Assembly: GCF_001314325.1 (NCBI RefSeq)
Contig: NZ_CP009429.1
Location: 1,550,501-1,614,500, forward strand
Length of the DNA: 64,000 nucleotides
Reading direction: 5' to 3'
Origin: Sphingopyxis macrogoltabida
Lineage (GTDB): Bacteria; Pseudomonadota; Alphaproteobacteria; Sphingomonadales; Sphingomonadaceae
Part shown: positions 49,460 to 63,666 of the stretch, piece by piece
Numbering within the stretch: the first letter of the stretch is position 1
Layout: each line of letters begins with the position of its first letter
Notes under the pieces: model-generated
Seen by the model: only the letters and a program-made list of their open reading frames with translations
Told to the model about the DNA's origin: nothing
Databases searched by the model: none
Made by a program: the position numbers and the translations under genes

Positions 49460-50260
49460 CTAGCGAACCGTGAATTTCTTGGCCTTGTCAGCCATCAGCG
49501 CGGCGCGGTTGACCTGCGGTACCCCGACCGGATTGCCGATCTGGCAATATTTGAGGCCTTGCTGCAGCGCGACGCTGCGCGGCAGGTCGAGCGATTCCCA
49601 GATCGCCTTGACCGATCCGGCGGTCGCGGCGGGTGGCTTTGCGGCGATGGTTGCGGCGAGTTCCTGTGCGCGCGGCCACAGATCGTCGAGCGTCGTAATC
49701 TCGCTGACGAGGCCGATACGCAGCGCAGTCCCCGCGCCGATGCGTTCGTCGTTGCCGAGCAGCACCATGCGCAGCACGTCGTGGAGCGGCATGTGATAGG
49801 TCATGCCGATCGGTTCGAGCGCGCTCGTCATCCCGTAAGTGACATGCGGGTCGAAGAAGGTCGCATCTTCGGAACAGATGATGATGTCGCTCTCGTTGAG
49901 CCAGTAGAAGGCGCCGCCGGCGGCCATGCCGTGCACCGCGGCGATCACCGGCTTCCAGCATTTCATCGACTTGGGGCCGAGATAATTGCCGGGATCCTCG
50001 CAATGCCAGATGTTGGCGAGGTCGACGACCGTGCCGCCTTCCTTCTGCGATTCCTTGACGTCGACGCCGGTGCACCACGCCTTGCCGGGCGCCGCACGCA
50101 GCACGCAGCAATGCACGTCGTCGTTGCTGCCGACCCACTTCCACAGATGCTCGAATTCGTCCATCATCCGCTTGGTGAAGCTGTTCATCGCCTCGGGCCG
50201 GTTGATCGTGATCGTCGCGATATGGTCGGCGACGTCGACGAGGATGGTTTCATATTGCAT
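49460..50260 (-). CDS. Enoyl-CoA hydratase/isomerase family protein
   Basis: Crotonase-fold protein of 266 residues. CoA-binding motifs are PGKAWCTGVDVKES and AAVHGMAAGGAFYWLNESDIIICSED. The usual hydratase glutamates are not obvious (DPHVTYGMTSALEP), so the reaction may differ from simple hydration. I chose the ATG at 50260 with a GGGAGAGGA element upstream. It is divergent from the ACAD gene across a palindrome, AGTTATACAACT. Confidence 0.85.
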   Translation of the reverse strand: MQYETILVDVADHIATITINRPEAMNSFTKRMMDEFEHLWKWVGSNDDVHCCVLRAAPGKAWCTGVDVKESQKEGGTVVDLANIWHCEDPGNYLGPKSMKCWKPVIAAVHGMAAGGAFYWLNESDIIICSEDATFFDPHVTYGMTSALEPIGMTYHMPLHDVLRMVLLGNDERIGAGTALRIGLVSEITTLDDLWPRAQELAATIAAKPPAATAGSVKAIWESLDLPRSVALQQGLKYCQIGNPVGVPQVNRAALMADKAKKFTVR

Positions 50261-50300
50261 GGCCAGCGATTCCTCTCCCGGCATTTGTCATGGTTGACCT

Positions 50301-50312
50301 AGTTATACAACT
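50301..50312. promoter_or_regulatory. Operator site 1 (AGTTATACAACT)
   Basis: Copy with one change from the perfect palindrome AGTTATATAACT seen at two other divergent promoters nearby. Flanks (ACCT before, CG after) match site 2. It lies between the enoyl-CoA hydratase and ACAD genes, placed to control both. Confidence 0.75.
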
Positions 50313-50351
50313 CGCTATGACACAGGTCGCAACAACGGGGCAAGTCCTGCG

Positions 50352-51443
50352 ATGAATTTCGACCTCAGCGATGAACAGAAAATGCTCGGCGAGCAAGCGC
50401 GCGCGCTCCTCGCCGATATGACACCTTTCGACCGGCTGCGCACGCTGATCGATTCGGGCGCCGAATGGGACGAGCCGCTGTGGCGCGCGCTCGCCGACAT
50501 GGGCTTCCTCGGCGCGGCGATCCCCGAGGAGCATGGCGGGCTCGGACTCGGCGCGCTCGACCTCGGCGTGATCATGGAAGCGCTTGGCTCCGCCAACGCC
50601 GCAGTGCCGTTCATGAGCTCGATCGTGCTGGGCGCCGAGGCGATCCGGCTGGCGGGAAGCGAAGCGCAGAGGGCGGCATGGCTGCCGAAGCTCGCCAGCG
50701 GCGAGGCGATCGCGACCTTCGCCTATGCCGAGGGGCCGGGGCCGGTGTTCGCAACGGGCGTGGCGCTGGAGGGCGGCAAGCTGAACGGCAGCAAGTCGCC
50801 GGTCGCCGACGCGGGCATTGCCGATATTGCGGTGGTGCTTGTCGGTGGCGGCGGTTTCGCGCTCGTCGAACTCGATCAGCCGGGCGTGAAGCGCACCAAG
50901 CTCGACAGTTTCGACCAGCTTCGCCCCCACTACCGGATCGATTTCGACGGGGCGGCGGCCGAAGCCATGCCGGGCGTCGGCAAGCTCGATCGACTGATCG
51001 ATCAGGCGGCGGTGCAGGCGGCATTCGAAGCCGTCGGCGGTGCCGAGGCCTGTCTGCACATGGCGCGCGACTATGCGATGGAGCGCCAGATCTTCGGGCG
51101 CCCGCTCGGCGGTTTTCAGGCGATCAAGCACAAGCTCGCCGATGTTGCGGTGGCAACCGAACTGGCGCGCTCTAACGCCTATTACGGCGGCTGGGCGGCC
51201 GAATCCTCGCCCGACGATCTGCCTGCCGCCGCGGCGGCGGCGCGACTGTCGGGGATCAAATGCCTCGAAATGGCGGCGCGGGAGAATCTACAGGTACATG
51301 GCGGGATCGGCTACACCTTCGAGGCGAATTGCCATTTCTATTACCGGCGCGAGCGGATGCTCGCCGTGCATCTCGGCAACCGCGGCTTTTGGGCTGACCG
51401 GCTGCTCAACGCACAACCGGGCAGTCAGGTGAAGGCGGCGTAA
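50352..51443 (+). CDS. Acyl-CoA dehydrogenase, short partner of pair 3
   Basis: ACAD-family protein of 363 residues. The N-terminal domain is intact (MNFDLSDEQKMLGEQARALLADM; AIPEEHGGLGLGALDLGVIMEALG). The middle domain lacks the usual SEPxxGSD and instead reads TFAYAEGPGPVFATGVAL. The C-terminal domain has RQIFGRPLGGFQAIKHKLADV and LQVHGGIGYTFEANCHFYYRRE. It is followed after one base by a full-length ACAD, so a heteromeric enzyme is likely. Confidence 0.9.
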   Translation: MNFDLSDEQKMLGEQARALLADMTPFDRLRTLIDSGAEWDEPLWRALADMGFLGAAIPEEHGGLGLGALDLGVIMEALGSANAAVPFMSSIVLGAEAIRLAGSEAQRAAWLPKLASGEAIATFAYAEGPGPVFATGVALEGGKLNGSKSPVADAGIADIAVVLVGGGGFALVELDQPGVKRTKLDSFDQLRPHYRIDFDGAAAEAMPGVGKLDRLIDQAAVQAAFEAVGGAEACLHMARDYAMERQIFGRPLGGFQAIKHKLADVAVATELARSNAYYGGWAAESSPDDLPAAAAAARLSGIKCLEMAARENLQVHGGIGYTFEANCHFYYRRERMLAVHLGNRGFWADRLLNAQPGSQVKAA

Positions 51444-51444
51444 A

Positions 51445-52668
51445 ATGGATTTCAACGACAGCCTCGAAGAAGCCGCCTTCCGCGCCGAAGCGCGCACCTG
51501 GCTCGCCGCCCATGCCCCTGCGCACGAACTTCCCGTCGGCGCCAAGATGCCCGACACCGAAGAGGCCGACCGCGGCCGCGCGTGGATGCGTGAGCTTTAC
51601 GCCGGCGGCTGGTCGGGGCTGACGTTCCCCAAGGCGCTTGGCGGGCGCGGGCTGTCGGGGATCGAGGCGGTGATTTTCGCGGAGGAAGAGGGGAAATATC
51701 ATCTGCCGAAGGGACCGTTCACGTCGATCGGCACCGGCATGGCGCTCCCGGTGATCGCGAAGCACGGCAATGACGAGCAGCGGGCACGCTTTATCGAAGC
51801 GACGCTGAAGGGCGACATCACCTGGTGCCAGCTCTTTTCCGAACCTGCCGCAGGCTCCGATCTTGCCGGATTGCGCACCAAGGCTGTGCGCGCCGACGAC
51901 GGGTCGGGCGACTGGATCGTCAACGGGCAGAAGGTCTGGTCGAGCTGGGCGCATCTGACCGACTGGGGCATCCTTGTCGTGCGCACCGATCCGACGGTGC
52001 CGAAGCACAAGGGGCTGACCTTCTTCGTTGTTGATATGAAGACGCTGGGGATCGAGACGCGGCCTATCCGCCAGATTTCCGGGGCGAGCGAGTTCAACGA
52101 GACCTTCCTGACCGACGTCCGCATTCCCGACGCCAATCGCCTCGGTGCCGAGGGCGAAGGCTGGGCCTGCTGCATGACGGTGCTGATGAGCGAACGGCTC
52201 GGTTCGGGCGCGCACCGCAGCGGGATCGAGCCTTTGCTCGATTTCGCGGCCGCCACCCCCGACGGGCATGGCGGCACGATGCTCGACGACCGGTCGATCC
52301 GCCAGCAGTTTGCCGAAGCGCTGGCCGAGGAGCAGGGCGAGCGCTTTTTTCAGGCGCGCCTCCGGACGATGGTGTCGAAGGGCGAGAATCCCGGCGCGCT
52401 CGCCGGGATGGTCAAGCTCGCCTATGCTTCGCGCTATCAGAAGACCAACGGCCTCGCGCTCGAACTGCGCGGTCTGGCGGGCATTGCGCCCGAAGCCGGC
52501 GATACCGCGACCGGCAACGTCCAGTACGACTATATCTATTCGACCGTGATGCGCATCGCGGGCGGCGCCGACGAGGTGCTGCGCAACCAGATCGCCGAAC
52601 GCGTGCTGGGGATGCCCGGCGAAGTGCGTATGGACAAGGACGTGCCGTTCGAGAAGCTGAAGGGATAG
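51445..52668 (+). CDS. Acyl-CoA dehydrogenase, long partner of pair 3
   Basis: Dehydrogenase of 407 residues with WCQLFSEPAAGSDLAGLRTKAV, WIVNGQKVWSSWAHLTDWGIL and C-terminal RIAGGADEVLRNQIAERVLGMP. It closely parallels the long member of pair 2. The ATG follows one base after the stop of the short partner. It likely provides the catalytic FAD site of the pair. Confidence 0.93.
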   Translation: MDFNDSLEEAAFRAEARTWLAAHAPAHELPVGAKMPDTEEADRGRAWMRELYAGGWSGLTFPKALGGRGLSGIEAVIFAEEEGKYHLPKGPFTSIGTGMALPVIAKHGNDEQRARFIEATLKGDITWCQLFSEPAAGSDLAGLRTKAVRADDGSGDWIVNGQKVWSSWAHLTDWGILVVRTDPTVPKHKGLTFFVVDMKTLGIETRPIRQISGASEFNETFLTDVRIPDANRLGAEGEGWACCMTVLMSERLGSGAHRSGIEPLLDFAAATPDGHGGTMLDDRSIRQQFAEALAEEQGERFFQARLRTMVSKGENPGALAGMVKLAYASRYQKTNGLALELRGLAGIAPEAGDTATGNVQYDYIYSTVMRIAGGADEVLRNQIAERVLGMPGEVRMDKDVPFEKLKG

Positions 52669-52680
52669 ACCTTCGATCTT

Positions 52681-52732
52681 GTCATTGCGAACGAAGAAGC
52701 GAAGCAATCGTCACTACGCTCCTCGCAATGAC
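52681..52732. repeat. Dispersed palindromic repeat, short relative of the element at 14.2 kb
   Basis: GTCATTGCGA (52681-52690) and TCGCAATGAC (52723-52732) form perfect inverted arms. The interior shares GCGAAGCAATC with the element downstream of pccA. It lies between convergent ACAD and ligase genes. Confidence 0.7.
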
Positions 52733-52737
52733 GGCGA

Positions 52738-54228
52738 CTAAGCCGCCCGCCGCCGTGCTTCCGCTGCCTTGGTCAGCGGCGCAACCAGTTCCTTTTTCAG
52801 GATCTTGCCGTTCGGGTTGAGCGGCATGACATCCATCACGACTAGCGTCCGCGGGACCTTGTTGTCGCCGAGATGCGCCTTGCAGAAATCGATGATCTCG
52901 TCTGCGGTCGCCTCGCCGCAGCCGGGGCGCAGCGTCACTGCGGCGGCGATATCCTCGCCGAGCACCTCGTGCGGCACGCCGACCACTGCGGCCTGCTGGA
53001 CCGCGGGATGCAGGTGGAGCACCGTTTCAATCTCGAGCGGCGTGATATTGTAGCCGCCGCGGATGATCAGTTCCTTCGACCGGCCCGCCATGATCAGGTC
53101 GCCGTCTTCGTCGACGAAACCGAGGTCGCCGGTCTTGGTCCAGCCGCCCTTGAAACCCGCCTCGGTCGCTTCGGGATCGTTCCAGTAGCGACGCTGATGT
53201 TTCTGCCAGCCATAGATTTCGCCGACTACGCCCGGTTCCGTGACGATATTTCCCGCTTCGTCGCGGATCTGCATATGCGCCGGCATCTTGCCGACGCAGC
53301 CGGGTTTCAGCACCTGTTCCTGGCTGCGCGTGCCGATGCCGACACCGCCTTCGGACATGCCATAGCTGTTGCGGATACGCAGGTGCGGCCAGAGTTCGGC
53401 CGCCCGCTTCACCGAATCGTGCGGCAGCGGTGCGGTGCCGGTCATCAGATATTTGACCCCGGCCATGTCGTAGGTCGCGACGTCGGGATGGTCGAGCACC
53501 AGCCGCAGCATCGAAGGGACGAGATAGACGAGGTCGGGGCGCTTTTCCTTCGCCAGTTCGAGGAAGCCTTTGGGGTCGAATTTCGGCTGGGTGATCGCGG
53601 TGGCGCCGCCGCGCGCGGGCAGCATGACGATCCCGATATTGCCGCCCGATCCGGTAAGCGGCAGAGCGTTCAGCGTCGATCGCGAGCGGTCCTGATTATG
53701 GCCCGTGACGCCGGTCATCAGGTCGGGGTGCGAGATCACGACGCCCTTGATCTTGCCCGTCGTCCCCGACGTGCCGAGGATTTCGGCGTCGGCCGCCGGG
53801 TCGAGGCCCGCCTGATCGGGCAGCGCGGCAAGGTCGCGCGGCATATCGTCGACATGCCAGCAGCCGGCGAGATCGAGACCCTTTACCAGATCGGGGGCGT
53901 CGGTCAGGCAAAAGCGCGGTCCGCACAGCGCGGCATAATCGGCGACTTCCTTCGGGTTGAGCCGCGTGCTGATCGGGCAGGCGATGCCGCCCGCGCGGAA
54001 CACGGCGAACACCGCGATCGCCATTTCGACCGCATGCGCATTGCTGATCGGCAGGAAGACGCGGTCGCCGGGAACGAGCCCCGCCGCGGCGAGACCGCCG
54101 CCGACCTCGTCGGCCTCGCGGTCCCATTCGGCGAAGCTGATCTGCCGCCTTATGTCGTCGTGTGCGATCTCATCGGCCTGATGCGACGCGCGCACCTTCA
54201 ATGCATCGCTGATGCGGCGAACTTCCAT
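52738..54228 (-). CDS. AMP-forming acyl-CoA ligase
   Basis: ANL-superfamily enzyme of 496 residues that activates a carboxylic acid with ATP and CoA. The phosphate-binding loop is LGTSGTTGKIKGVVISH (near residue 158). Other motifs are RNSYGMSEGG, the hinge TKTGDLGFVDEDGDL and the C-terminal lysine in NPNGKILKKEL. It lacks a signal peptide. Position in the ACAD island suggests it primes the pathway substrate. The ATG at 54228 was preferred over a GTG 9 bp upstream. It is divergent from the MaoC-like gene across operator site 2. Confidence 0.92.
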   Translation of the reverse strand: MEVRRISDALKVRASHQADEIAHDDIRRQISFAEWDREADEVGGGLAAAGLVPGDRVFLPISNAHAVEMAIAVFAVFRAGGIACPISTRLNPKEVADYAALCGPRFCLTDAPDLVKGLDLAGCWHVDDMPRDLAALPDQAGLDPAADAEILGTSGTTGKIKGVVISHPDLMTGVTGHNQDRSRSTLNALPLTGSGGNIGIVMLPARGGATAITQPKFDPKGFLELAKEKRPDLVYLVPSMLRLVLDHPDVATYDMAGVKYLMTGTAPLPHDSVKRAAELWPHLRIRNSYGMSEGGVGIGTRSQEQVLKPGCVGKMPAHMQIRDEAGNIVTEPGVVGEIYGWQKHQRRYWNDPEATEAGFKGGWTKTGDLGFVDEDGDLIMAGRSKELIIRGGYNITPLEIETVLHLHPAVQQAAVVGVPHEVLGEDIAAAVTLRPGCGEATADEIIDFCKAHLGDNKVPRTLVVMDVMPLNPNGKILKKELVAPLTKAAEARRRAA

Positions 54229-54272
54229 TGGCGACACTATCCCCTTGCTTCGATATGAAGCATGTATTACCT

Positions 54273-54284
54273 AGTTATATAACT
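54273..54284. promoter_or_regulatory. Operator site 2 (AGTTATATAACT)
   Basis: Perfect 12-bp palindrome located between the divergent acyl-CoA ligase and MaoC-like genes (44 bp and 20 bp from their starts). Same core as site 3 and one change from site 1. The short distance to the MaoC-like start suggests repression. Confidence 0.8.
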
Positions 54285-54304
54285 CGTGACAAGGGAGATA
54301 TGCG

Positions 54305-55591
54305 ATGGCCGAGGCGAAAAGCGACATCAAGCAAAGCGATGAGTGGCAGAAAGCCGTCGCCTATGAGATTACGGACGAGGATATCGAGCGGCAGCGCAAA
54401 TTGCTCGGCTTCGATCAGGCGGCGAAGACCCGCGAATATATCCAGACCGCGACCGAGGATAATATTCGCAACTTCGCGCACGGCATGGGCGACGACAAGC
54501 CGCTCTACACCGACCCGGCCTATGCGAAAAAGACGCGCTGGGGCAGCGTGATCGCACCGGGGATGATGGCTGGCATCATCAACAAGCCGATGAAGGGTGA
54601 CCCTGTGCCCGACGAGATCAAGGCGCTGAAAAAGAGCCTGTTCCGCGGTATTCATGTCTTCGTGTCGGGTTCGCAATGGGACTTTTATCGCCCCATCTAT
54701 CCGGGCGATACCATTTACAGCTTCAACGGCGACGAGAGCTGCGAGGTCAAGCAGTCCGAATTTGCGGGCCGGTCGGTGATCACCGTTCGCCGCGACGTCA
54801 AGATGAACCAGCGCGGCGAGGTCGTTGCGGTCTATCGCATCCTGCGCGTCCTGACCGAGCGCAAGACGGCGGCGAAGAAGGGCAAATATTCGGCGATCGA
54901 ACCCGCAAGCTATACCGACGAGGAAATGCAGGCGATCGAGGATATTTACGCCAAGGAACAGGTCCGAGGTGCCGAAAAGCGCTGGTTCGAAAGCGTTGAA
55001 AAGGGCGATTCGGTCGGCCTGCAGGCGAAGGGCCCGCTAACCGTCACCGACGTTATCTGCTTCCATGCGGGCGGCTACGGCTTCGTGCCCTATGCGCCGA
55101 CCGCGAACCGCCTCGCGCACAAGAATCGCCAGCGCATCCCCGCCTTCTACGTGAAGAACGAGCATGGCATCCCCGATGTTGCGCAGCGGCTGCACTGGGA
55201 CCCGGTGTGGGCGCAGGCGATCGGCAATCCGATGGCCTATGACTATGGGGTGATGCGCGAAAACTACCTGTGGCAGTATCTCAGCGACTGGGCGGGCGAC
55301 GACGCGGTGATCACCCACATCCACGACGAAATCCGCAAGTTCAATTATATGGGCGACGTCCAGCGCGTCACCGGCGAGGTGCTCGCAAAGCGGCAGGAAG
55401 GCGGGCAGAGCCTCGTCGACGTTGCGGTGAAATTCACCAACCAGCGCGACGAGGAAACGGTGCGTGCAACCGCGACGATCGCGCTGCCGAGCAAGGATCG
55501 CCCGCTGCCGCTCTATCCGCAGGTGCCCGACGAACTTGCCGAAAAGGCGGTTCGGATGCTGGCGCGTCATCGCGAACTCGGCGGGGATTGA
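54305..55591 (+). CDS. Double hot-dog MaoC-like dehydratase
   Basis: Protein of 428 residues with two hot-dog-fold segments. The N-terminal one is FAS1-like dehydratase/MaoC type (FAHGMGDDKPLYTDPAYAKKTRWGSVIAPGMM), followed by WDFYRPIYPGDTIYS. The second lies around residues 215-415 (HWDPVWAQAIGNPMAYDYGVMRENYLWQYLSDW; VTGEVLAKRQ). Related proteins hydrate enoyl-CoAs with bulky chains, including steroid side chains. A GGGAGA ribosome site precedes the ATG. Substrate unknown. Confidence 0.85.
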   Translation: MAEAKSDIKQSDEWQKAVAYEITDEDIERQRKLLGFDQAAKTREYIQTATEDNIRNFAHGMGDDKPLYTDPAYAKKTRWGSVIAPGMMAGIINKPMKGDPVPDEIKALKKSLFRGIHVFVSGSQWDFYRPIYPGDTIYSFNGDESCEVKQSEFAGRSVITVRRDVKMNQRGEVVAVYRILRVLTERKTAAKKGKYSAIEPASYTDEEMQAIEDIYAKEQVRGAEKRWFESVEKGDSVGLQAKGPLTVTDVICFHAGGYGFVPYAPTANRLAHKNRQRIPAFYVKNEHGIPDVAQRLHWDPVWAQAIGNPMAYDYGVMRENYLWQYLSDWAGDDAVITHIHDEIRKFNYMGDVQRVTGEVLAKRQEGGQSLVDVAVKFTNQRDEETVRATATIALPSKDRPLPLYPQVPDELAEKAVRMLARHRELGGD

Positions 55592-55637
55592 TTCACTTGC
55601 CGTTCGCCATGAAGATCGGGGCAGGGGAGGCCCAGCG

Positions 55638-56432
55638 ATGTCCGAAGTGCTGATCGACGATGATGCGGGGGTCCGTACCATCACCCTCAACCGGCCCGAC
55701 CGGCTCAACGCGCTGACCAGCTCGATCATGGCGCCGCTCGCCGATGCCTGCGCCGACGCGGCGCGCGATGCGTCGGTGGGGTGCGTCGTGGTGACCGGGG
55801 CAGGGCGCGGCTTTTGTGCCGGCGGCGACCTCAAGGAAGGCGGCGCCGACAAGGCGGTCGTGCCCGCCAACTCCGAGGTTGGCAGCCGCACCGAACAGGG
55901 CTTCGTGCGGCTGCGCACTTTCATGGAGACCTCGCGCCTGCTTCACGAAATGCCCAAGCCGACGATCGCGATGGTCAACGGGCCGGTCGCGGGCGCGGGA
56001 ATCGGCATCGCGGGAGCGTGCGACCTGCGTTTCGCAGGCAGGAGCGCGAGTTTCCTGACCGCCTTCGACCGCATCGGCGCGGGGGGCGATTTCGGATCGA
56101 CCTGGTTCTGGACCAAGATCGTCGGCACCGGCGTGGCGCGCGAACTCTTCCTCCTCGGCGAAAAGCTGTCGGCGGACGAGGCGTTCGCCAAGGGACTCTA
56201 TACCCGGCTCTTAGACGACGAGGCGCTGCGCGACGAGACGATGATTGCGGCGCGCCGCCTCGCCGACGGGCCGCGCATGGGTTATCGCTATATGAAGGCG
56301 AACCTCAACAATGCCGAGGATTGGGCCTTCGAGGCCGCGCTCGATGCCGAGGCGCTCAACATGGGGCTCTCGACCAGCGCGACCGCGATGATCTGGCGCG
56401 AGAAGAAGAAGGCCGAAAATCCCGATGGCTGA
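55638..56432 (+). CDS. Enoyl-CoA hydratase family protein
   Basis: Crotonase-fold protein of 264 residues: TITLNRPDRLNALTSSIM, GRGFCAGGDLKEGG and MVNGPVAGAGIGIAGACDLRFAGRSA. The expected hydratase glutamate region reads FDRIGAGGDFGSTWF, so isomerase activity is also possible. GGGGAGG precedes the ATG at 55638. Its stop overlaps the next hydratase gene by 8 bp. Confidence 0.9.
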   Translation: MSEVLIDDDAGVRTITLNRPDRLNALTSSIMAPLADACADAARDASVGCVVVTGAGRGFCAGGDLKEGGADKAVVPANSEVGSRTEQGFVRLRTFMETSRLLHEMPKPTIAMVNGPVAGAGIGIAGACDLRFAGRSASFLTAFDRIGAGGDFGSTWFWTKIVGTGVARELFLLGEKLSADEAFAKGLYTRLLDDEALRDETMIAARRLADGPRMGYRYMKANLNNAEDWAFEAALDAEALNMGLSTSATAMIWREKKKAENPDG

Positions 56433-57222
56433 ATTTCAGCATATCCGCATCGATCGCCGTGACGGCGGCATCGCGGCGGTCATCGTTGCGCGCGCCGATA
56501 TCGGCAATGCGTCGTCGCCCGAAATGCTGGGTGAGATCCGCGAGGCCTTTGCTGCGCTCTCCACTGACCGCGACGTCCGCGCGATCGTGTTCGCTGCCGA
56601 GGGCAAGCATTTCTCGGTCGGCGCCGATTTTGCCTTTCTGCAAAAGCTGACGGGCATGTCGGCGAGCGAGATCAAGGACACTGTCTACGCCAATTTTCAG
56701 GGCGCGGCGCGTGCCATCTACCGCTGCCCCAAGCCGACGCTGGCGCTCGTGCAGGGCGCGGCGGTGACGGTCGGCTGCGAACTGGCGCTTGCCTGCGATT
56801 TCCGGATCGCCGCCGACAATGCGATGTTTCAGGAAAGCTGGATCAAGCTCGGCATCATGCCGCCGCTCGGCGGGACCTTCCTGCTGCCGCGTATCGTCGG
56901 GCTCGGCCGTGCGATGGCAATGTGCCTGCGCGGCAAGCAGGTTCGCGCCGAGGAAGCGCTGCAGATCGGTCTGGTCGGCGAAGTTGTCGCCCGCGACGAC
57001 CTCGACGCGCGCGGTATGGACCTGGCGCGCGAACTCGCGGCCTCGGCGCCGCTCGCCTATGCGACGGTCAAACAGTCGATCCAGCGCGCGCTCGAAAGCA
57101 GCATGGAGGCCGAATGGCAGGCGAACCTGCCCAATCAGGCCCTGCTGCTCGGCAGCGAGGATCATCGCGAAGGGCTGGCGGCGGTGACCGAGAAGCGCGC
57201 GCCGCAATTTCAGGGGCGCTAG
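56425..57222 (+). CDS. Enoyl-CoA hydratase family protein
   Basis: Second crotonase-fold protein in tandem, 265 residues. Motifs are GKHFSVGADFAFL, LVQGAAVTVGCELALACDFRIAADNA and FQESWIKLGIMPPLGGTFLLPRIVG. The two tandem genes differ enough to suggest distinct steps rather than a recent duplication. The gene converges with the thioesterase gene with a 4-bp overlap. Confidence 0.9.
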   Translation: MAEFQHIRIDRRDGGIAAVIVARADIGNASSPEMLGEIREAFAALSTDRDVRAIVFAAEGKHFSVGADFAFLQKLTGMSASEIKDTVYANFQGAARAIYRCPKPTLALVQGAAVTVGCELALACDFRIAADNAMFQESWIKLGIMPPLGGTFLLPRIVGLGRAMAMCLRGKQVRAEEALQIGLVGEVVARDDLDARGMDLARELAASAPLAYATVKQSIQRALESSMEAEWQANLPNQALLLGSEDHREGLAAVTEKRAPQFQGR

Positions 57223-58016
57223 GTCTTTTCGAGTTTCTGCCCCGCGGCGACGAAGATCGTCTGCGTTCCCTTGGCATAGACGCCCTCGGCATCGGCAAAG
57301 ACCGTCTGGGCAACCGCATGGCCGTTGCCCGCACCTTCGGTAAACGCATCGAGCAGAAACCAGTCGCCGCGCGGCATGCGAAAGAACTGGATCGAGATGT
57401 CGAGATTGGCATAGCTCCATTCGTGCGCGAAGGTCGCGCTGCCGACGCCGTTGCCGAAATCGGCGAAGAGACACGCCTTCGCGAAGGGCGAGGCGGGTAC
57501 GCCTGCCACGACTTCGCCGTCCATGCGCATCCACGACACGCCGCGCCCCGGTTCGCGCACCCGGCCCATGATCGGGCGCGTCCGGATCGCCCCGGCCATG
57601 CTCGCGCCAACGAGGAAATTGTCCTCGGCCACATCGTCGGGCGCCGGGTGCGGCTGCGGCGCGGCGAAGGCCGGGGTGTCGAGGTGGCGCGCGAGCAGCA
57701 CATGCGCCTGTGCCACCAGCCGGTCGGCGGCGAGCAGTTCGATGCGATGCAGTTGCGCCTGCCGTCCCTGCCGCACCGGCACGATACGCGGCACCAGCGG
57801 CGCGCGCGGCACGATACCGAGGATATCGATCGTCAAGCGGCAGATTTCGAAATCGGGATCGAAACCGGCGCTTTCGACGATGTGTCCGATCAGCGCCGCG
57901 ATCGGCCCGCCCGCAACCGCATTGGCGAACCAGGGATTGCGGGCAAGACCCGAAGGGAGGAAGGCTTCGCCTTCGGCGGTGAAATAGTGCGGAAGGGTGT
58001 CGGGATCGATGCTCAT
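57219..58016 (-). CDS. Acyl-CoA thioesterase-like double hot-dog protein
   Basis: Protein of 265 residues resembling the TesB/PF13622 thioesterase group: N-terminal GEAFLPSGLARNPWFANAVAGGPIAALIGHIVES, and C-terminal EWSYANLDISIQFFRMPRGDWFLLDAFTEGAGNGHAVAQTVFADAEGVYAKGTQT. It may release CoA from stalled intermediates. It is divergent from the long ACAD of pair 4 across operator site 3. Confidence 0.87.
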   Translation of the reverse strand: MSIDPDTLPHYFTAEGEAFLPSGLARNPWFANAVAGGPIAALIGHIVESAGFDPDFEICRLTIDILGIVPRAPLVPRIVPVRQGRQAQLHRIELLAADRLVAQAHVLLARHLDTPAFAAPQPHPAPDDVAEDNFLVGASMAGAIRTRPIMGRVREPGRGVSWMRMDGEVVAGVPASPFAKACLFADFGNGVGSATFAHEWSYANLDISIQFFRMPRGDWFLLDAFTEGAGNGHAVAQTVFADAEGVYAKGTQTIFVAAGQKLEKT

Positions 58017-58062
58017 CGGTCGCCTCTACCATGCCCGTCATGGCGCACAACATATTTGACGT

Positions 58063-58074
58063 AGTTATATAACT
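58063..58074. promoter_or_regulatory. Operator site 3 (AGTTATATAACT)
   Basis: Perfect 12-bp palindrome between the divergent thioesterase and ACAD genes. It is 46 bp from the thioesterase start and 37 bp from the ACAD start. Same sequence as site 2. Confidence 0.8.
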
Positions 58075-58111: not shown

Positions 58112-59323
58112 ATGGACCTGAGCTATGGCGAGGCGGCGGAGACCTTCCGCGCCGAGGTGCGCGCCTTCCTGTCGCTCCACTGGCCGCCGCCCTCCGACCT
58201 GCGCGGCGGCGACCTCAAACAGTTTGTCCGTAGCTTTCGCGCGCTCGCGACCGAACAGGGCTATCTCCACCGCGCGATCCCCAAACGGTACGGCGGTTCC
58301 GAGCAACCGGTCGATGTCATTCGCGCGCAGGTGATCCGCGAAGAGTTCCAGCGTGCACGGGCCCCGATGGAGGTTGGCGGCAACGGCATGAACATGACCG
58401 TGCCCACCTTGCTCGAAAAGGGGACCGAAGAGCAGAAGGACCTCTTCATCCGCAAGACAGTCGAGGGCGATTATGTCTGGGGGCAGGGCTATAGCGAGCC
58501 CGGATCGGGTAGCGACCTTGCGAGCGTGCGGACCAAGGGCGAATTGTCCGCCGACGGCAGCAAATGGATCATCAACGGCCAGAAAATCTGGACCTCGCAG
58601 GGCATGCAATCGACGCATATGTTCATGCTCGTGCGCACCGAGCCCGACGCGCCCAAGCATGACGGTATCACCTATCTTCTGATCGACCTCGACCAGCCCG
58701 GGGTCACCCGCCGCCCGATCCGTCAGATGACGGGAGAGGAGGGTGATCACACTTTCTGCGAATTCTTCTTCGACAATGCCGAGACGCCGGTGTCGTGGCA
58801 GGTCGGCGAGCGCGGGCAGGGCTGGTACGTCAGCCGCACGACGCTGAAGCACGAACGTGCGAGCATCGGCGGCGCCGACGGGCTGGGTAAGCAGTTCGCC
58901 AAGCTGGTCGATCTCGCCAAGGAGGTCGGCCGCATCGACGACCCGATCGTGCGCGACAAGCTGGCGCAGATCGAGGGTTCGGTCCTGTCGCACCGCTATT
59001 CGAGCTACCGGATCTTCAGTTGCGCTGCGGCGGGCGAGGACCCCGGCCCGGTTGCGCTGATGATGAAATTGCTGCTGACCGAGATCGGCCACGAAATGGC
59101 ACTGCTCGCGCAGGAGTTGATCGGAGAGCATGGCTTCCTCGAGCCCGCCGGCGCGGGCGGGCGCGGCAATCGCGGACCGCGCGGACCCGAAAAATGGCTC
59201 GACCAGATCATGGGCAGCCTCGGCAATTCGATTGCCGGTGGGGCGTCGAACATCCAGCGCAACATCATCGGCGAACGCGGCCTCGGCCTGCCGCGCGACC
59301 TCGCGATGAGCGGGGAGCGCTGA
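58112..59323 (+). CDS. Acyl-CoA dehydrogenase, long partner of pair 4
   Basis: Dehydrogenase of 403 residues: VWGQGYSEPGSGSDLASVRTKGE, WIINGQKIWTSQGMQSTHMF, and C-terminal SIAGGASNIQRNIIGERGLGLP. The GAGGGAG ribosome site is strong. The following ACAD-like gene starts at GTG one base after the stop, so the pair is likely one enzyme. Confidence 0.93.
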   Translation: MDLSYGEAAETFRAEVRAFLSLHWPPPSDLRGGDLKQFVRSFRALATEQGYLHRAIPKRYGGSEQPVDVIRAQVIREEFQRARAPMEVGGNGMNMTVPTLLEKGTEEQKDLFIRKTVEGDYVWGQGYSEPGSGSDLASVRTKGELSADGSKWIINGQKIWTSQGMQSTHMFMLVRTEPDAPKHDGITYLLIDLDQPGVTRRPIRQMTGEEGDHTFCEFFFDNAETPVSWQVGERGQGWYVSRTTLKHERASIGGADGLGKQFAKLVDLAKEVGRIDDPIVRDKLAQIEGSVLSHRYSSYRIFSCAAAGEDPGPVALMMKLLLTEIGHEMALLAQELIGEHGFLEPAGAGGRGNRGPRGPEKWLDQIMGSLGNSIAGGASNIQRNIIGERGLGLPRDLAMSGER

Positions 59324-59324
59324 C

Positions 59325-60308
59325 GTGCATTTCCACCTGACCGAAGAGCAGGCAGCCATTCAGGACGCAGTGCGCGGTACGCTGACCGACAACTGGCCGA
59401 TGGAGCGTATCCATGCCTTCGCCGATGGCGACGAGGATTTCGACCGCACAAGCTGGGAAGCGCTGATGGCGCTCGGGCTCGGCGGGATGCTGGCGCCGGA
59501 CAGCGGCATGGGGCTGCTCGACGCGGCGCTGGTCTGCGAGGTTGCGGGCGAGGCGGCGGCGGCGGGACCGCTGATCGGTCAGTTGCTGGCAGTCGCGGCG
59601 GTGGCCGCGAGCGGGCGGGGCGATGCCGAGGCACTGACAAGCGGCAAGACGGTCGCGACGCTGGTCCATGGCGGCAGCGATTACGCCCCATCCGCTCGCG
59701 CGGCCGACCTGTTCCTGATCGTCGATCGCGCAAAGGGCGTCCGTCTGGTTGCAGCCGCCGACGTCACCATCGAAGCTGTGAAAGCATCCGACCGGACTCG
59801 CCCGATGTCGAAAGTCTCCATAGCCGATGGCGCGGGCGAAGCGCTATTCGATGCCACCGATCCGATGACCGCGCGTCTCGCCGACGCCGCGCTGGTGCTG
59901 GTCGCTGCCGACGCGCTTGGCGGCGCGCAGAAGGTGACCGACATGAGCGTCGCCTATGCTAAGGAGCGCGAACAGTTCGACCAGCCGATCGGACGCTTTC
60001 AGGGTTTGAAACATCAGCTCGCGCATATGGCGCTCGACGTCGAGCCGGCCCGCGCGCTCGTCTGGTACGCGGCCTATGCGTGGGACGCAGGGCTTCCCGA
60101 CGCACCGCGTGCGGCTGCAATGGCGAAGGCGCATCTCTGCGACGTCTATGTCCGCGCGACGCGCGCGGCGGTCGCGGCTCATGGCGGCATCGGCTATACA
60201 TGGGAATATGGTCTCAACTATTGGTTCCGCCGCGCGATGGCCGACCGCGCCTGGCTCGGCAGTCCTGCCGAACATCGCGCGCGGGCGGCGGCGCTCGCGG
60301 GCTGGTAG
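59325..60308 (+). CDS. Acyl-CoA dehydrogenase-like protein, short partner of pair 4
   Basis: ACAD-family protein of 327 residues starting at GTG. The N-terminal domain is recognisable (FHLTEEQAAIQDAVRGTLTDNW) but shortened. The middle domain has no SEPxxGSD signature (VATLVHGGSDYAPSARAADLFL). The C-terminal domain holds REQFDQPIGRFQGLKHQLAHM and VAAHGGIGYTWEYGLNYWFRRA. It is probably a partner subunit of the preceding dehydrogenase. Confidence 0.87.
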   Translation: MHFHLTEEQAAIQDAVRGTLTDNWPMERIHAFADGDEDFDRTSWEALMALGLGGMLAPDSGMGLLDAALVCEVAGEAAAAGPLIGQLLAVAAVAASGRGDAEALTSGKTVATLVHGGSDYAPSARAADLFLIVDRAKGVRLVAAADVTIEAVKASDRTRPMSKVSIADGAGEALFDATDPMTARLADAALVLVAADALGGAQKVTDMSVAYAKEREQFDQPIGRFQGLKHQLAHMALDVEPARALVWYAAYAWDAGLPDAPRAAAMAKAHLCDVYVRATRAAVAAHGGIGYTWEYGLNYWFRRAMADRAWLGSPAEHRARAAALAGW

Positions 60309-60311
60309 GCG

Positions 60312-61676
60312 GTGAGCGACCCGCTGACCCTCGCGCCGGGCGTGCGGCGGCTGCGCCCCGACGATCATTTCATGATCCTGTCGGAAACCGACGCCTCGCC
60401 GATGCATGTCGGCGCGCTGATCCTGCTCGACGTCCCGGCCGACGGGCAGGACGGCTTCGCCGCAGCGATCCGCCGTCAGTTCGCCGAGCGGCTCCCCGCA
60501 ACGCCCTTGCTGGTGCGGCTGCACGAGGCGCCCGACGGTTATGACAGCGACGTCTGGGCCGACATCGCGCGCGCCGACCTCGAAACGCTGGTGGCGGTCG
60601 AGCCGCACGACGGCGCGTGGAGCGAGGCCGAGCTTTACGATGCGGTCGCGCGGCTCAACATGCGCCGCCTCGACCTGTCGGGTCCGCCGTTCGCGGCGCA
60701 CCTGTTCGAACGGCTCGGTGAGGGCGGCAGCGCGATTTACCTCAAGATGCATCACAGCGTCGCCGATGGCATCGGCTTTCAGACGGTGCTCGGCCTGCTG
60801 AGTGACGTCGCACCGCCGGCGACCGCGCGCTTCGCCGACGCAAGGCTGCCCGAACCGGAGAAATGGCGTTGCAAGGCCGATACGCACTTCGCGGCCGAAG
60901 AGGCGCTGCGCGCGGTGCAATCGGCACGGCGCAAGCAAGCGCTCGCCGAACTCGACGCGTTCAAGGACGACCGCGAACCGACGCCGCAGCTCGCGATGTC
61001 GGGTCCGACCTCGGACAAGCGCCGCTATGCGACGATCAGCCTGCCGGTGGCGCGGGTAAAAGCGGTGGGAAAAGCGCTGGATGCGACGGTCAACGATATC
61101 TTCCTGACGCTCGCGAGCACCGCGCTGCGCAATTATCTCGGCGAAACAGGTGATCTTCCTGATACGCCCCTCGTTATCAATTCGGCGCGCTCGTACCGCC
61201 GCGACGAGCATGGACCGTTCGGCAATCGTATTGTGGCGCTGCATCCTCATCTCGCGACGCATCTCGCCGATCCGGTCGCGCGGCTGCGCGCGATCCAGGC
61301 GTCGATGGCGAAGGAGATGCAGCGGACAGCGCACGACGAGGCGCTGCTCGACGCTGCCGAAAAGCCTTATGGCGCGCGCGACCGGCGCGCCGCTTTTGCC
61401 GAACGTCTGGCGGGCGGCAAGCGGCTGCTTCCCGGCAATCTGACGCTGTCGAACGTTCCCGGCCCGTCCGAGGCGCGGAGCTATGCCGGCTTTCGTCAGC
61501 GCCACAATTATCCGGTCCCGATCATCGGTTCGGGCCGCTTTCTCAACATCACCTCGCGGCGCAGCGGCGACAATCTCGACATGGGCGTGATCGCCGACGC
61601 CGAAAAAATAGCCGATGTCGGTCGCATCGCGGCGCTGTTCGCCGCCGCGCTGGACGAACTGGAGAGCCTTGCATGA
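60312..61676 (+). CDS. WS/DGAT-family O-acyltransferase
   Basis: Protein of 454 residues of the bacterial wax ester synthase/diacylglycerol acyltransferase family. The catalytic HHxxxDG is present as MHHSVADGIG (about residues 147-153). C-terminal family features are TVNDIFLTLASTALRNYL and LTLSNVPGPSEARSYAG. Such enzymes transfer acyl groups from acyl-CoA to alcohols or diacylglycerol. Start codon is GTG, 3 bp after the previous stop, and the stop overlaps the next ATG, so it belongs to the pair 4 operon. A role in storage lipid or in modifying the pathway substrate is possible. Confidence 0.9.
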   Translation: MSDPLTLAPGVRRLRPDDHFMILSETDASPMHVGALILLDVPADGQDGFAAAIRRQFAERLPATPLLVRLHEAPDGYDSDVWADIARADLETLVAVEPHDGAWSEAELYDAVARLNMRRLDLSGPPFAAHLFERLGEGGSAIYLKMHHSVADGIGFQTVLGLLSDVAPPATARFADARLPEPEKWRCKADTHFAAEEALRAVQSARRKQALAELDAFKDDREPTPQLAMSGPTSDKRRYATISLPVARVKAVGKALDATVNDIFLTLASTALRNYLGETGDLPDTPLVINSARSYRRDEHGPFGNRIVALHPHLATHLADPVARLRAIQASMAKEMQRTAHDEALLDAAEKPYGARDRRAAFAERLAGGKRLLPGNLTLSNVPGPSEARSYAGFRQRHNYPVPIIGSGRFLNITSRRSGDNLDMGVIADAEKIADVGRIAALFAAALDELESLA

Positions 61677-62731
61677 CCGACGATTTGACGTTCAGACCCG
61701 AAGACGACCGCTATCACCAGCTCTCCGACGATCCCTATGAAACCGAGACCAACTGGTGGTCGTTCAACATTCCCGAACGCAAGATCGGCTGCTGGATCCA
61801 CGCGCCCTATTATCCCAATCGCAAGGCGATCACCTGGCGCATCTTCGCCTGGGACGACGAGGGCTATGATCAGGCGCGCATGGCCTATTACCGCAAGGTC
61901 GAGGAAGCGCCGATGCCCGATGCGCCCGACCTCACCGACATCGTCTTTCCCGGCGACAAGCACGGCGGCGGCTACAGCCTGAAAATGATCGAGCCGGGCA
62001 TGAAATACCACCTCCAGTACGAGGACCCGTCGCGCGGCTTCGCGCTCGATTTTACTCACACCGGTCTCCACCAGCCGCACCGCTTCCCGCCGGGCAAGCC
62101 GCCGTTCATGGCGACGCCGCATTATGACCAGCTCGGCCATGTTGAGGGCTGGATGACCCTGCGCGGCGAGCGCATCCGTATCGACGGCATCGGGGTGCGC
62201 GACCGGACGTGGGGGCCGCGCGGCGGGCCGTATGCGGCGAGCCCGAAAGTTTATGCGAATGACATGGAGCGGGTGAAGCATCCCGGCGGCGCGCGGTGGC
62301 GCGAGATCGAGCGCGAGCGGGGGAGGGGGCGTATCCAGTATATCTTCGGCCATCGCCGCGACGGTACCGGATTCCTCGGCTTTGCGCGCGTGCAGGATGG
62401 CGACGCCGACGGCTGGTCGCCGATGAACGCCGGCTGGATCCGCCGCGACGGGACCTTCGGCAGCCTCGACACCGCCCGGTCGCGCATGCGCGTCTTTCGC
62501 AGCCCCAAGACCGGCTGGAGCATGCACATGCAGGTCGAGCTCGTCGACGAGCATGGCCGTGAGATGAAGAGCGAGGGCTTCACCGTCTCGACGATGAGCG
62601 AGGCCGGATATGGCGTGAACCAGTTGATGCGTTGGGACATTGACGGCGGCATCGGCTGGGGCGAGGATCAGGATGTGTGGAATCCGCAGCATTATCTGCG
62701 GATGCTCGATGCGCTGAAAGCCACCGTTTGA
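61673..62731 (+). CDS. Uncharacterised lipocalin-like protein (DUF7064-like motif)
   Basis: Protein of 352 residues, rich in Trp, Tyr and His, without signal peptide. A notable motif is IDGIGVRDRTWGPRGGP (about residues 172-188), of the GxGxRDxxWGxR type seen in CrtC/AttH-like lipocalin-fold proteins of unknown role. The N-terminal half has ETNWWSFNIPERKIGCWIHAPYYPN, and a beta-rich C-terminal half follows. It is coupled to the WS/DGAT gene by ATGA overlap. Function unknown; binding or modification of a hydrophobic molecule is plausible. Confidence 0.75.
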   Translation: MTDDLTFRPEDDRYHQLSDDPYETETNWWSFNIPERKIGCWIHAPYYPNRKAITWRIFAWDDEGYDQARMAYYRKVEEAPMPDAPDLTDIVFPGDKHGGGYSLKMIEPGMKYHLQYEDPSRGFALDFTHTGLHQPHRFPPGKPPFMATPHYDQLGHVEGWMTLRGERIRIDGIGVRDRTWGPRGGPYAASPKVYANDMERVKHPGGARWREIERERGRGRIQYIFGHRRDGTGFLGFARVQDGDADGWSPMNAGWIRRDGTFGSLDTARSRMRVFRSPKTGWSMHMQVELVDEHGREMKSEGFTVSTMSEAGYGVNQLMRWDIDGGIGWGEDQDVWNPQHYLRMLDALKATV

Positions 62732-62736
62732 CCGCA

Positions 62737-63666
62737 ATGTTTTCCGGACTGTCGCTGCCGCTAATGTGCGCGCCGATGAGCTTTGCCTCGTCGGTGCCTC
62801 TGGCTGTCGCCTGCTGCCGCACCGGGGTGGTCGGGGGCTGGCAGGGCGGCACGATCACCCCGTTCGAACAGTTCGAAGATTATCTGAAAGCGCTCGCCGA
62901 CGTCGATGGGGCGCCGCCGATCGCCAACATGCCCGCGCGCTGGGGCACCGACCCAGCCGCCGCCGATCGCCTCGACCTGCTCGAACGTTACCGCGTGCCG
63001 CTCGTCCTTTCGAGCCTCGGCAACCCGTCGGCGCTGGTTGAACGCGTCCACGGCTGGGGCGGGCGCGTCGTTCACGACGTGACGACGATGAAGCACGCCG
63101 AAAAAGCAATCGCCGCCGGTGCCGACGGGCTGATGCTGACCTGCGCGGGGGCAGGCGGGCACACGGGCTTCCTGACCCCGATGGCGTTCGTGCCGGCGGT
63201 GCGGCGGATGTTCGGCGGGCTGCTGATCGTCGCGGGCGGCATTGCCGATGCGCATGGCATTGCGGCGTCATTGGCGCTCGGCGGCGATATCGCCTGTATG
63301 GGCACGCGCTTTATTGCGACCCCCGAAAGCGGGGTGGTCGAGGGGCATCGGGCCATGATTCCCGCCGTGAGCGCCGACGATATCGTCGCATCGGCGGCGA
63401 TGAACGGCGTCCCCGCGCACTGGATGCGCCAGTCGATCGAGGCGGTCGGGCTCGACGCAAAGGCTTTACCCAATGTCCGCTCGCCGATGCCCGAAGGCGT
63501 GATGCCCTGGCGCGACATCTGGAGTGCAGGGCAAAGCGCCGGCCTGATCGATGCGGTGGAGCCCGTTGCCGAGCTGGTCGCGCGGTTGAAGCGCGAGTTC
63601 GAAGCGCTGCCCGTGACCACCGACTGGCGGGCGCGCCTGGCGACAGTTGCGGCGGACTGGTCCTAG
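62737..63666 (+). CDS. Nitronate monooxygenase/2-nitropropane dioxygenase-like flavoprotein
   Basis: FMN-dependent TIM-barrel protein of 309 residues. Family features are LMCAPMSFASSVPLAVACCRTGVVGGWQGG, LTCAGAGGHTGFLTPMAFVPAV and IVAGGIADAHGIAASLALGGDIACMGTRFIAT. The family includes nitronate monooxygenases and enoyl reductase-like enzymes such as FabK; members near beta-oxidation genes may act as 2,4-dienoyl-CoA or enoyl-CoA reductases. I chose ATG 62737; a TTG at 62728 overlapping the previous stop (TTGA) is an alternative. Confidence 0.87.
   Translation: MFSGLSLPLMCAPMSFASSVPLAVACCRTGVVGGWQGGTITPFEQFEDYLKALADVDGAPPIANMPARWGTDPAAADRLDLLERYRVPLVLSSLGNPSALVERVHGWGGRVVHDVTTMKHAEKAIAAGADGLMLTCAGAGGHTGFLTPMAFVPAVRRMFGGLLIVAGGIADAHGIAASLALGGDIACMGTRFIATPESGVVEGHRAMIPAVSADDIVASAAMNGVPAHWMRQSIEAVGLDAKALPNVRSPMPEGVMPWRDIWSAGQSAGLIDAVEPVAELVARLKREFEALPVTTDWRARLATVAADWS

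Follow-up and report, generated by a model that had tools for sequence, protein, structure and literature searches.

A shared palindrome in a block of acyl-CoA genes

The window analysed here is a 64-kb stretch of the 5.75-Mb Sphingopyxis macrogoltabida genome (G000:C1:1550501-1614500) that carries a block of genes for acyl-CoA metabolism, and in three places within it the same palindrome, AGTTATAYAACT, stands between two divergently transcribed genes (Table 1). An earlier note on this DNA had proposed that the palindrome defines an acyl-CoA regulon. We report that it is the core of a longer operator found at about 11 promoters of a 72-kb catabolic cluster extending beyond the window, and that the cluster is probably controlled by an FCD-type regulator of the GntR family encoded within it, g93.

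The three copies lie at positions 50301, 54273 and 58063, as had been noted, and each is the sole copy in its gap of 91, 76 or 95 bases. Searching both strands of the window with up to two mismatches returns these three places (six strand matches) and no other copy. Across 100 dinucleotide shuffles of the window, the mean was 0.35 strand matches and the maximum 3; six was never reached. The earlier note had also described flanks shared by the first two sites. ACCT is indeed common to sites 1 and 2 (site 3 has ACGT) and proved to be a piece of a broader left-flank rule that holds across 42 sites of five genomes, but the right flank CG is not general.

An extended, oriented operator confined to one cluster

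Genome-wide, AGTTATAYAACT with up to one mismatch gives 15 strand hits at 8 places, all within the 72 kb of C1:1600801-1673054, compared to 28 matches (17+11) for its reversed control. With up to two mismatches, AGTTATATAACT occurs at 16 places, nine of them in the cluster and the other seven all carrying exactly two mismatches, and its control occurs at 82. To describe the site more fully, we aligned 42 sites from five genomes: nine from our own genome, nine from G016, 10 from G033, six from G001 and eight from G030. The G001 sites come from the fetched stretch, two exact 12-mers elsewhere in that genome being left aside, and the weight matrix omitted a two-mismatch hit inside g92 of G033. 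The alignment yields a longer, oriented operator, ACNTAGTTATAYAAST, with the palindrome as its core; the left half of the operator hardly varies, while the right half is variable. A(-4) and C(-3) are present in 42 of 42 sites and T(-1) in 41, figures that are inflated because the AC flank was itself used to set the orientation. Allowing one mismatch, ACNTAGTTANATAANT matches our genome nine times, always in the cluster, and its reversed control never; under a uniform model, the odds of eight further hits sharing the same 72 kb are about 6e-16.

Scanning 200 kb with the weight matrix at a threshold of at least 13 bits identified 11 places, two of which are weaker (1615193, 19.6 bits; 1622080, 22.0 bits). 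The earlier note had held that its regulon would be refuted by a similar frequency of the motif in coding DNA; by our gene calls, all 11 places are intergenic in a span that is 90.6% coding. Between C1:1589900 and 1676000, sites occupy nine of 16 divergent gaps, two of seven co-directional gaps longer than 50 bases and none of 16 convergent gaps. The site at 1622080 is intergenic only with a hand-chosen TTG start at 1622145, which is preceded by GGAGG (the gap script used 1622141); an earlier in-frame ATG at 1622088 would place it inside the gene. The distance from the motif to the start codon it points at is 11-73 bases. One operator common to divergent promoters, as first suggested, is thus a well-supported regulon, but the operator is longer than the palindrome and asymmetric, and the regulon comprises about 11 promoters over 72 kb, three of them in the window.

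Conservation in relatives

The cluster is syntenic in G016, G033, G001 and G030, and the sites recur there at the orthologous promoters, often with the same flanking bases. Phylogenetic footprinting, which the earlier note had recommended, finds sites kept at orthologous promoters both within the genus and in other genera. In G364, G130 and G350, which belong to other genera, sites are found beside g73, before g110, between g112 and g113, or before g115 (two-mismatch hits inside genes are not shown). Among 80 genomes of the genus, the extended motif is present in 5-11 copies in 24, in one copy in six and in none in 50, compared to 0-4 matches per genome for the reversed control; the cut of at least five hits that we use below was chosen after these counts were seen. 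A chance palindrome was rejected on the window shuffles, the genome-wide confinement and the extended-motif count in our own genome. A single 12-mer in G042 was rejected as an operator because it lacks the extended motif. The named relatives of the cluster's regulators are mostly from Sphingopyxis.

Outside the cluster, a one-mismatch match, ACTTAGTTACATAAGC, is present in five relatives (G025:C1:967600, G029:C11:46435, G033:C1:4254157, G034:C48:10622 and G041:C44:98138) and is perhaps a remote member of the regulon.

g93 is the leading candidate for the regulator

The earlier note had found no TetR, MarR or GntR gene in the window and placed the repressor gene elsewhere. Inspecting the first 40-60 residues of the 52 window gene calls by eye, we likewise recognised no gene of these three types; the Pfam scan of helix-turn-helix candidates in the window covered two, an MmyB-like regulator and PhaR. 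The regulator gene does appear to lie outside the window, but probably in the same cluster, where candidates follow 10 kb (g93) and 32.6 kb (g113) past the window end. The cluster contains five regulator genes: MarR g89, GntR/FCD g93, TetR g97 (by sequence only), GntR/FCD g113 and TetR g120.

The g93 protein has an N-terminal GntR winged helix (PF00392, 62.7 bits, cut-off 27) and a C-terminal, all-helical FCD domain (PF07729, 71.5 bits, cut-off 24.3). Its AlphaFold model has a predicted local distance difference test score of 86.7, and the top Foldseek rows are GntR/FCD proteins. The metal site of FCD domains consists of one aspartate and three histidines. In the alignment examined, His159, His229 and His233 are invariant and most rows have no aspartate four residues before His159.

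We found g93 (E<=1e-70) in 24 of the 80 genus genomes, which are the same 24 that have at least five extended-motif hits. Because the cluster travels as a block, co-occurrence in the genus cannot choose between its genes, and the genomes of other genera matter more. Within the genus, G013 (three contigs, completeness 100) has no g113 hit and retains g93 (71%); next to g73 it has ACCTAGTTATACAACT, and the TATT flank is conserved too. G043 is also motif-rich and has no g113 hit, but its assembly comprises 360 contigs and g113 may be missing for that reason. Across 298 genomes of the family, g93 (E<=1e-50) is present in 19 and g113 (E<=1e-30) in 10, our own genome being counted in each, and 13 have g93 without a g113 hit. 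Eight of these 13 (G346, G367, G192, G327, G298, G245, G287 and G320) share a mini-regulon. In it, a thiolase (g66, 72-73%) and a divergent crotonase/CoA-transferase pair have one operator in the gap that separates them, and just before a dehydrogenase-g93 pair stands a second copy, which is weaker in four of the eight (15.9 bits). The eight regions contain no relative of g89, g97 or g120, and g113 is found there only as a cross-match to g93. In the G192 region (nine open reading frames, one without a Pfam hit and some poorly called), g93 is the sole regulator recognised by Pfam. The other five genomes do not show the association in this form, although one of them, G324, has two sites on its g93 contig in a different layout. 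Thus, in eight of 13 genomes the association of regulator and operator does not depend on the cluster. A motif box is also present within 300 bases upstream in 10 of 20 g93-relative loci from genomes other than our own (p<=0.007, 300 shuffles), and our own g93 operon starts at the weak site 1622080.

Several observations weigh against g93. Within the genus, the motif would accompany any gene of a cluster that moves as a block. The immediate promoter of our own g93 has no site (0.2 bits, p 0.067), and 10 of the 20 g93-relative loci have no significant upstream box; nine of these 10 come from the genera labelled g34 and g69 and one more, and in those loci that were inspected coding sequence takes up most of the upstream DNA. 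The extended motif is missing near g93 in G259 and G368, is absent altogether from G211, and in G112 sits on a different contig from g93. Some one-mismatch matches in relatives (e.g. G016, G025 and G033) fall outside the cluster. In G013, one site precedes a g120-like TetR gene (42%, 23.2 bits). Finally, a box within three mismatches stands before g113 in 21 of 22 genus loci. We put the probability that the sites are operators of g93 at about 0.74, a figure that counts as points against g93 both the TetR-associated site of G013 and the five genomes in which the mini-regulon arrangement is not seen.

From these comparisons of sequence, we propose that a g93 dimer would bind ACNTAGTTATAYAAST upstream of the start codon of the gene to which the motif points, at the spacing of 11-73 bases seen in the cluster, and would thereby control about 11 promoters, nine of them in divergent gaps, over the 72-kb acyl-CoA catabolic cluster. 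Its predicted targets are ligases, acyl-CoA dehydrogenase pairs, crotonases, the MaoC protein, thiolase/DUF35 pairs, the thioesterase, a TonB receptor, DitZ- and PtmU3-type enzymes and its own operon. As a rule, FCD regulators repress until a metabolite releases them, and operators within about 70 bases of start codons would suit repression of divergent promoters. Most likely, g93 would act as a repressor that yields once its FCD domain has bound a pathway acid or the CoA ester of that acid. In this scheme g113 would be one g93 target and would be autoregulated through a palindrome of its own, at the g113 start codon.

g113 and other possible binders

The strongest competitor is g113, which might bind the operators alone or in competition with g93, although we consider this unlikely. 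The protein has an FCD domain (36.4 bits, cut-off 24.3), and its GntR match of 26.6 bits falls just under the Pfam cut-off of 27; g93 and g113 share 45% identity over 49 residues, in the DNA-binding domain only. The earlier note had suggested looking for a regulator gene with the same site in its own promoter, and g113 is such a gene, since its promoter carries ACCTAGTTATATAAGT. Besides the genus loci mentioned above, a site of at least 22 bits precedes g113 in 22 of 42 more distant named loci (L082-L123; g113 relatives of 34-66% identity, including Novosphingobium, Henriciella and Hyphomonas), the other 20 being without one, and g113 (E<=1e-20) is present in 22 of the 24 motif-rich genus genomes. 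Our initial conclusion was indeed that g113 is the one autoregulated repressor, but G013 and the g113-free genomes of other genera lowered it to a rival: G013 and eight more genomes of the family lack g113 yet retain the motif. The site before g113 also lies in a gap common to g112 and need not be autoregulatory, and G012, whose g113 is 56% identical, has just a 7.5-bit box there.

A different palindrome adjoins the g113 start codon; loci such as L095, L101, L102 and L107, which have lost the operator, retain it. Our own copy is AATAGGTATCTATT, at 1647067-1647080, and the element is found beside the start codon in most of the orthologs listed; within this promoter, one half of the palindrome directly adjoins the operator (AGATACCTAGTTATATAAGT). 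We infer that this palindrome is g113's own site. We rejected AACAGATATCTGTT as a second regulon motif of our genome: it occurs at 53 places at up to three mismatches, compared to 22 for the control, and the one cluster place listed is at g113. Two further features of g113 loci deserve mention. Directly after g113 lies an unusual fusion of an alpha/beta hydrolase to an HsaB/FerA-like flavin reductase (L010:17300-18523, plus strand; C1:1647800-1649026). A metagenome-assembled genome labelled Gammaproteobacteria (L080, MGYJ01000088.1) has a g113 of 75% identity with the operator in its promoter, reflecting either a wrong label or a transfer.

The two regulators could also be joined in a two-tier circuit, a tentative idea that we think may well fail. 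Here g93 would read ACNTAGTTATAYAAST at about 11 promoters and g113 would read AACAGATACCTGTT-type palindromes, and the elements that abut at g112/g113 (AGATACCTAGTTATATAAGT) would integrate two ligands, such as one intermediate from early and one from late in the pathway. The g93 operator would have begun as a small thiolase/CoA-transferase/dehydrogenase switch, which eight of the sampled genomes, from two other genera, still show, and would then have spread to 11 promoters of the terpenoid cluster.

We regard it as very improbable that another regulator of the cluster (TetR g97, TetR g120 or MarR g89), or one from outside it, binds the operators. All three genes lie within the syntenic cluster, 12-bp palindromic sites are not exclusive to FCD proteins, and the G013 site does precede a g120-like gene. 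However, no good site is found before g97 (nine regions), g89 (six) or g120 (seven of eight), the highest score otherwise being 4.0 bits before g97 of G033, and the mini-regulon regions have no relatives of these genes. Least credible of all is that the motif is a core-promoter element or dispersed repeat, since its AT-richness, its TATAA-like strings, its closeness to start codons and a TTGAC before 14 of the 42 sites are outweighed by its confinement to the cluster in our genome, its 0-1 copies in the 56 genus genomes without the cluster regulator, and its one main copy per promoter, retained at orthologous promoters.

Enzymes of the cluster and their possible substrate

The genes adjoining the sites encode crotonases, acyl-CoA dehydrogenases, ligases, a MaoC protein, a thioesterase, thiolase/DUF35 pairs, short-chain dehydrogenases/reductases, a TonB receptor, g112 and g130; those at the three window operators are given in Table 1. 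Genes g79-g82 follow downstream of operator 3 in the same direction and are probably co-transcribed.

Table 1. Operators, adjoining genes and FCD regulators (window positions, unless a contig is given).
Feature	Position	Strand	Remarks
Operator 1, ACCTAGTTATACAACT	50297..50312	+	Between g70 (crotonase, -) and g71 (acyl-CoA dehydrogenase, +); weight matrix 31.5 bits
Operator 2, ACCTAGTTATATAACT	54269..54284	+	Between g73 (ligase, -) and g74 (MaoC-type, +); 34.0 bits
Operator 3, ACGTAGTTATATAACT	58059..58074	+	Between g77 (thioesterase, -) and g78 (acyl-CoA dehydrogenase, +); 32.9 bits
g70, enoyl-CoA hydratase/crotonase family	49460..50260	-	NCBIfam rows below cut-off
g71, acyl-CoA dehydrogenase, PimD-like below cut-off	50352..51443	+	NCBIfam
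g72, acyl-CoA dehydrogenase-type partner	51445..52668	+	Named from sequence alone
g73, acyl-CoA ligase	52738..54228	-	NCBIfam rows below cut-off
g74, MaoC/FAS1_DH-type dehydratase	54305..55591	+	
g75, enoyl-CoA hydratase family	55638..56432	+	NCBIfam rows below cut-off
g76, crotonase-type gene	56425..57222	+	Named from sequence alone
g77, acyl-CoA thioesterase (4HBT_3/4HBT_3C)	57219..58016	-	
g78, acyl-CoA dehydrogenase, PimC-like below cut-off	58112..59323	+	NCBIfam
g79-g82: acyl-CoA dehydrogenase-type, wax ester synthase/diacylglycerol acyltransferase (WS/DGAT)-like, Rv3169-like, one unscanned	59325..63666	+	g80 and g81 scanned
g93, FCD/GntR regulator	G000:C1:1624489-1625259	+	10 kb right of window end
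g113, second FCD/GntR gene	C1:1647081-1647803		32.6 kb beyond window end; strong operator ACCTAGTTATATAAGT in own promoter

Among the best 25 NCBIfam rows for each of 30 cluster proteins, none is above its cut-off, so our guess at the substrate rests on relatives in the PDB. The g130 protein matches DitZ (8uyr; 316 bits, E 3e-93), an enzyme of resin-acid catabolism, and g112 matches PtmU3 (6omp; 245 bits), which serves the biosynthesis of the diterpenoid platensimycin. Downstream of g130, the cytochrome P450 g129 matches P450cam, and a second P450, g96, which does not adjoin a site, matches CYP101J2. These DitZ-, PtmU3- and P450cam-like relatives suggest, with moderate confidence at best, that the cluster serves the catabolism of a polycyclic terpenoid.

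Two other proteins stand out. The wax ester synthase/DGAT-like acyltransferase at window positions 60312-61676 (TIGR02946, 247 bits, cut-off 310) is odd amid degradative genes. A 731-residue protein (L011:250-2442, plus strand; C1:1650750-1652945) matches CaiB-type CoA-transferases over its second half and in other stretches, and is possibly a double CoA-transferase.

Comparison with known systems and significance

The predicted fold of g93 matches solved FCD-type GntR structures, namely E. coli NanR (6on4), C. glutamicum CGL2915 (2di3), DhdR (9jpj) and VanR Atu1419 (6za3), and its profile match to NanR has an E of 2e-24. It differs from the solved FCD regulators in sequence (at most 27% identity in the Foldseek rows) and in its proposed target, a large acyl-CoA cluster. 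FadR, whose site in E. coli is TGGTCNGACCA, is a GntR protein as well, yet only a distant match to g93 and g113. As far as the excerpted account in PMC5343134 describes them, the FadR, PsrA, FadP and LiuR regulons of Proteobacteria follow the same plan of one regulator, one palindromic operator and many beta-oxidation operons; PsrA and FadP appear in its table as TetR proteins and LiuR as a MerR protein. Unlike the fatty-acid and branched-chain regulons of that account, the sites here are confined to one cluster, and the candidate regulator is of another lineage.

The dit resin-acid cluster of Pseudomonas and Paraburkholderia, in the portions of PMC10710418 and PMC13063091 that describe it, shares with our cluster a DitZ homolog (g130), P450s, ligases and dehydrogenases. 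It proceeds by a dioxygenase route, and our cluster differs from it in many genes and has no evident DitA1. A crude test for the Rieske-type pattern C.H(14-20)C..H, applied to the 78 predicted proteins of C1:1589900-1676000 and not to the rest of the genome, found none, and a dit-type dioxygenase route is therefore not evident. The open-licence literature that we searched yielded no account of the regulon or of the operator ACNTAGTTATAYAAST, and the 12-mer string appeared there only in a mouse genetics context.

For a large catabolic cluster that 24 of 80 sampled congeners carry, our analysis names a candidate regulator, spells out an operator and lists about 11 promoters. Screening inducers against a single promoter fusion could show to which class the substrate belongs. 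The two FCD regulators offer a case for how a small switch expands across a gene cluster. If our reading is true, one control protein would switch the whole of a pathway for lipid or terpene breakdown at once.

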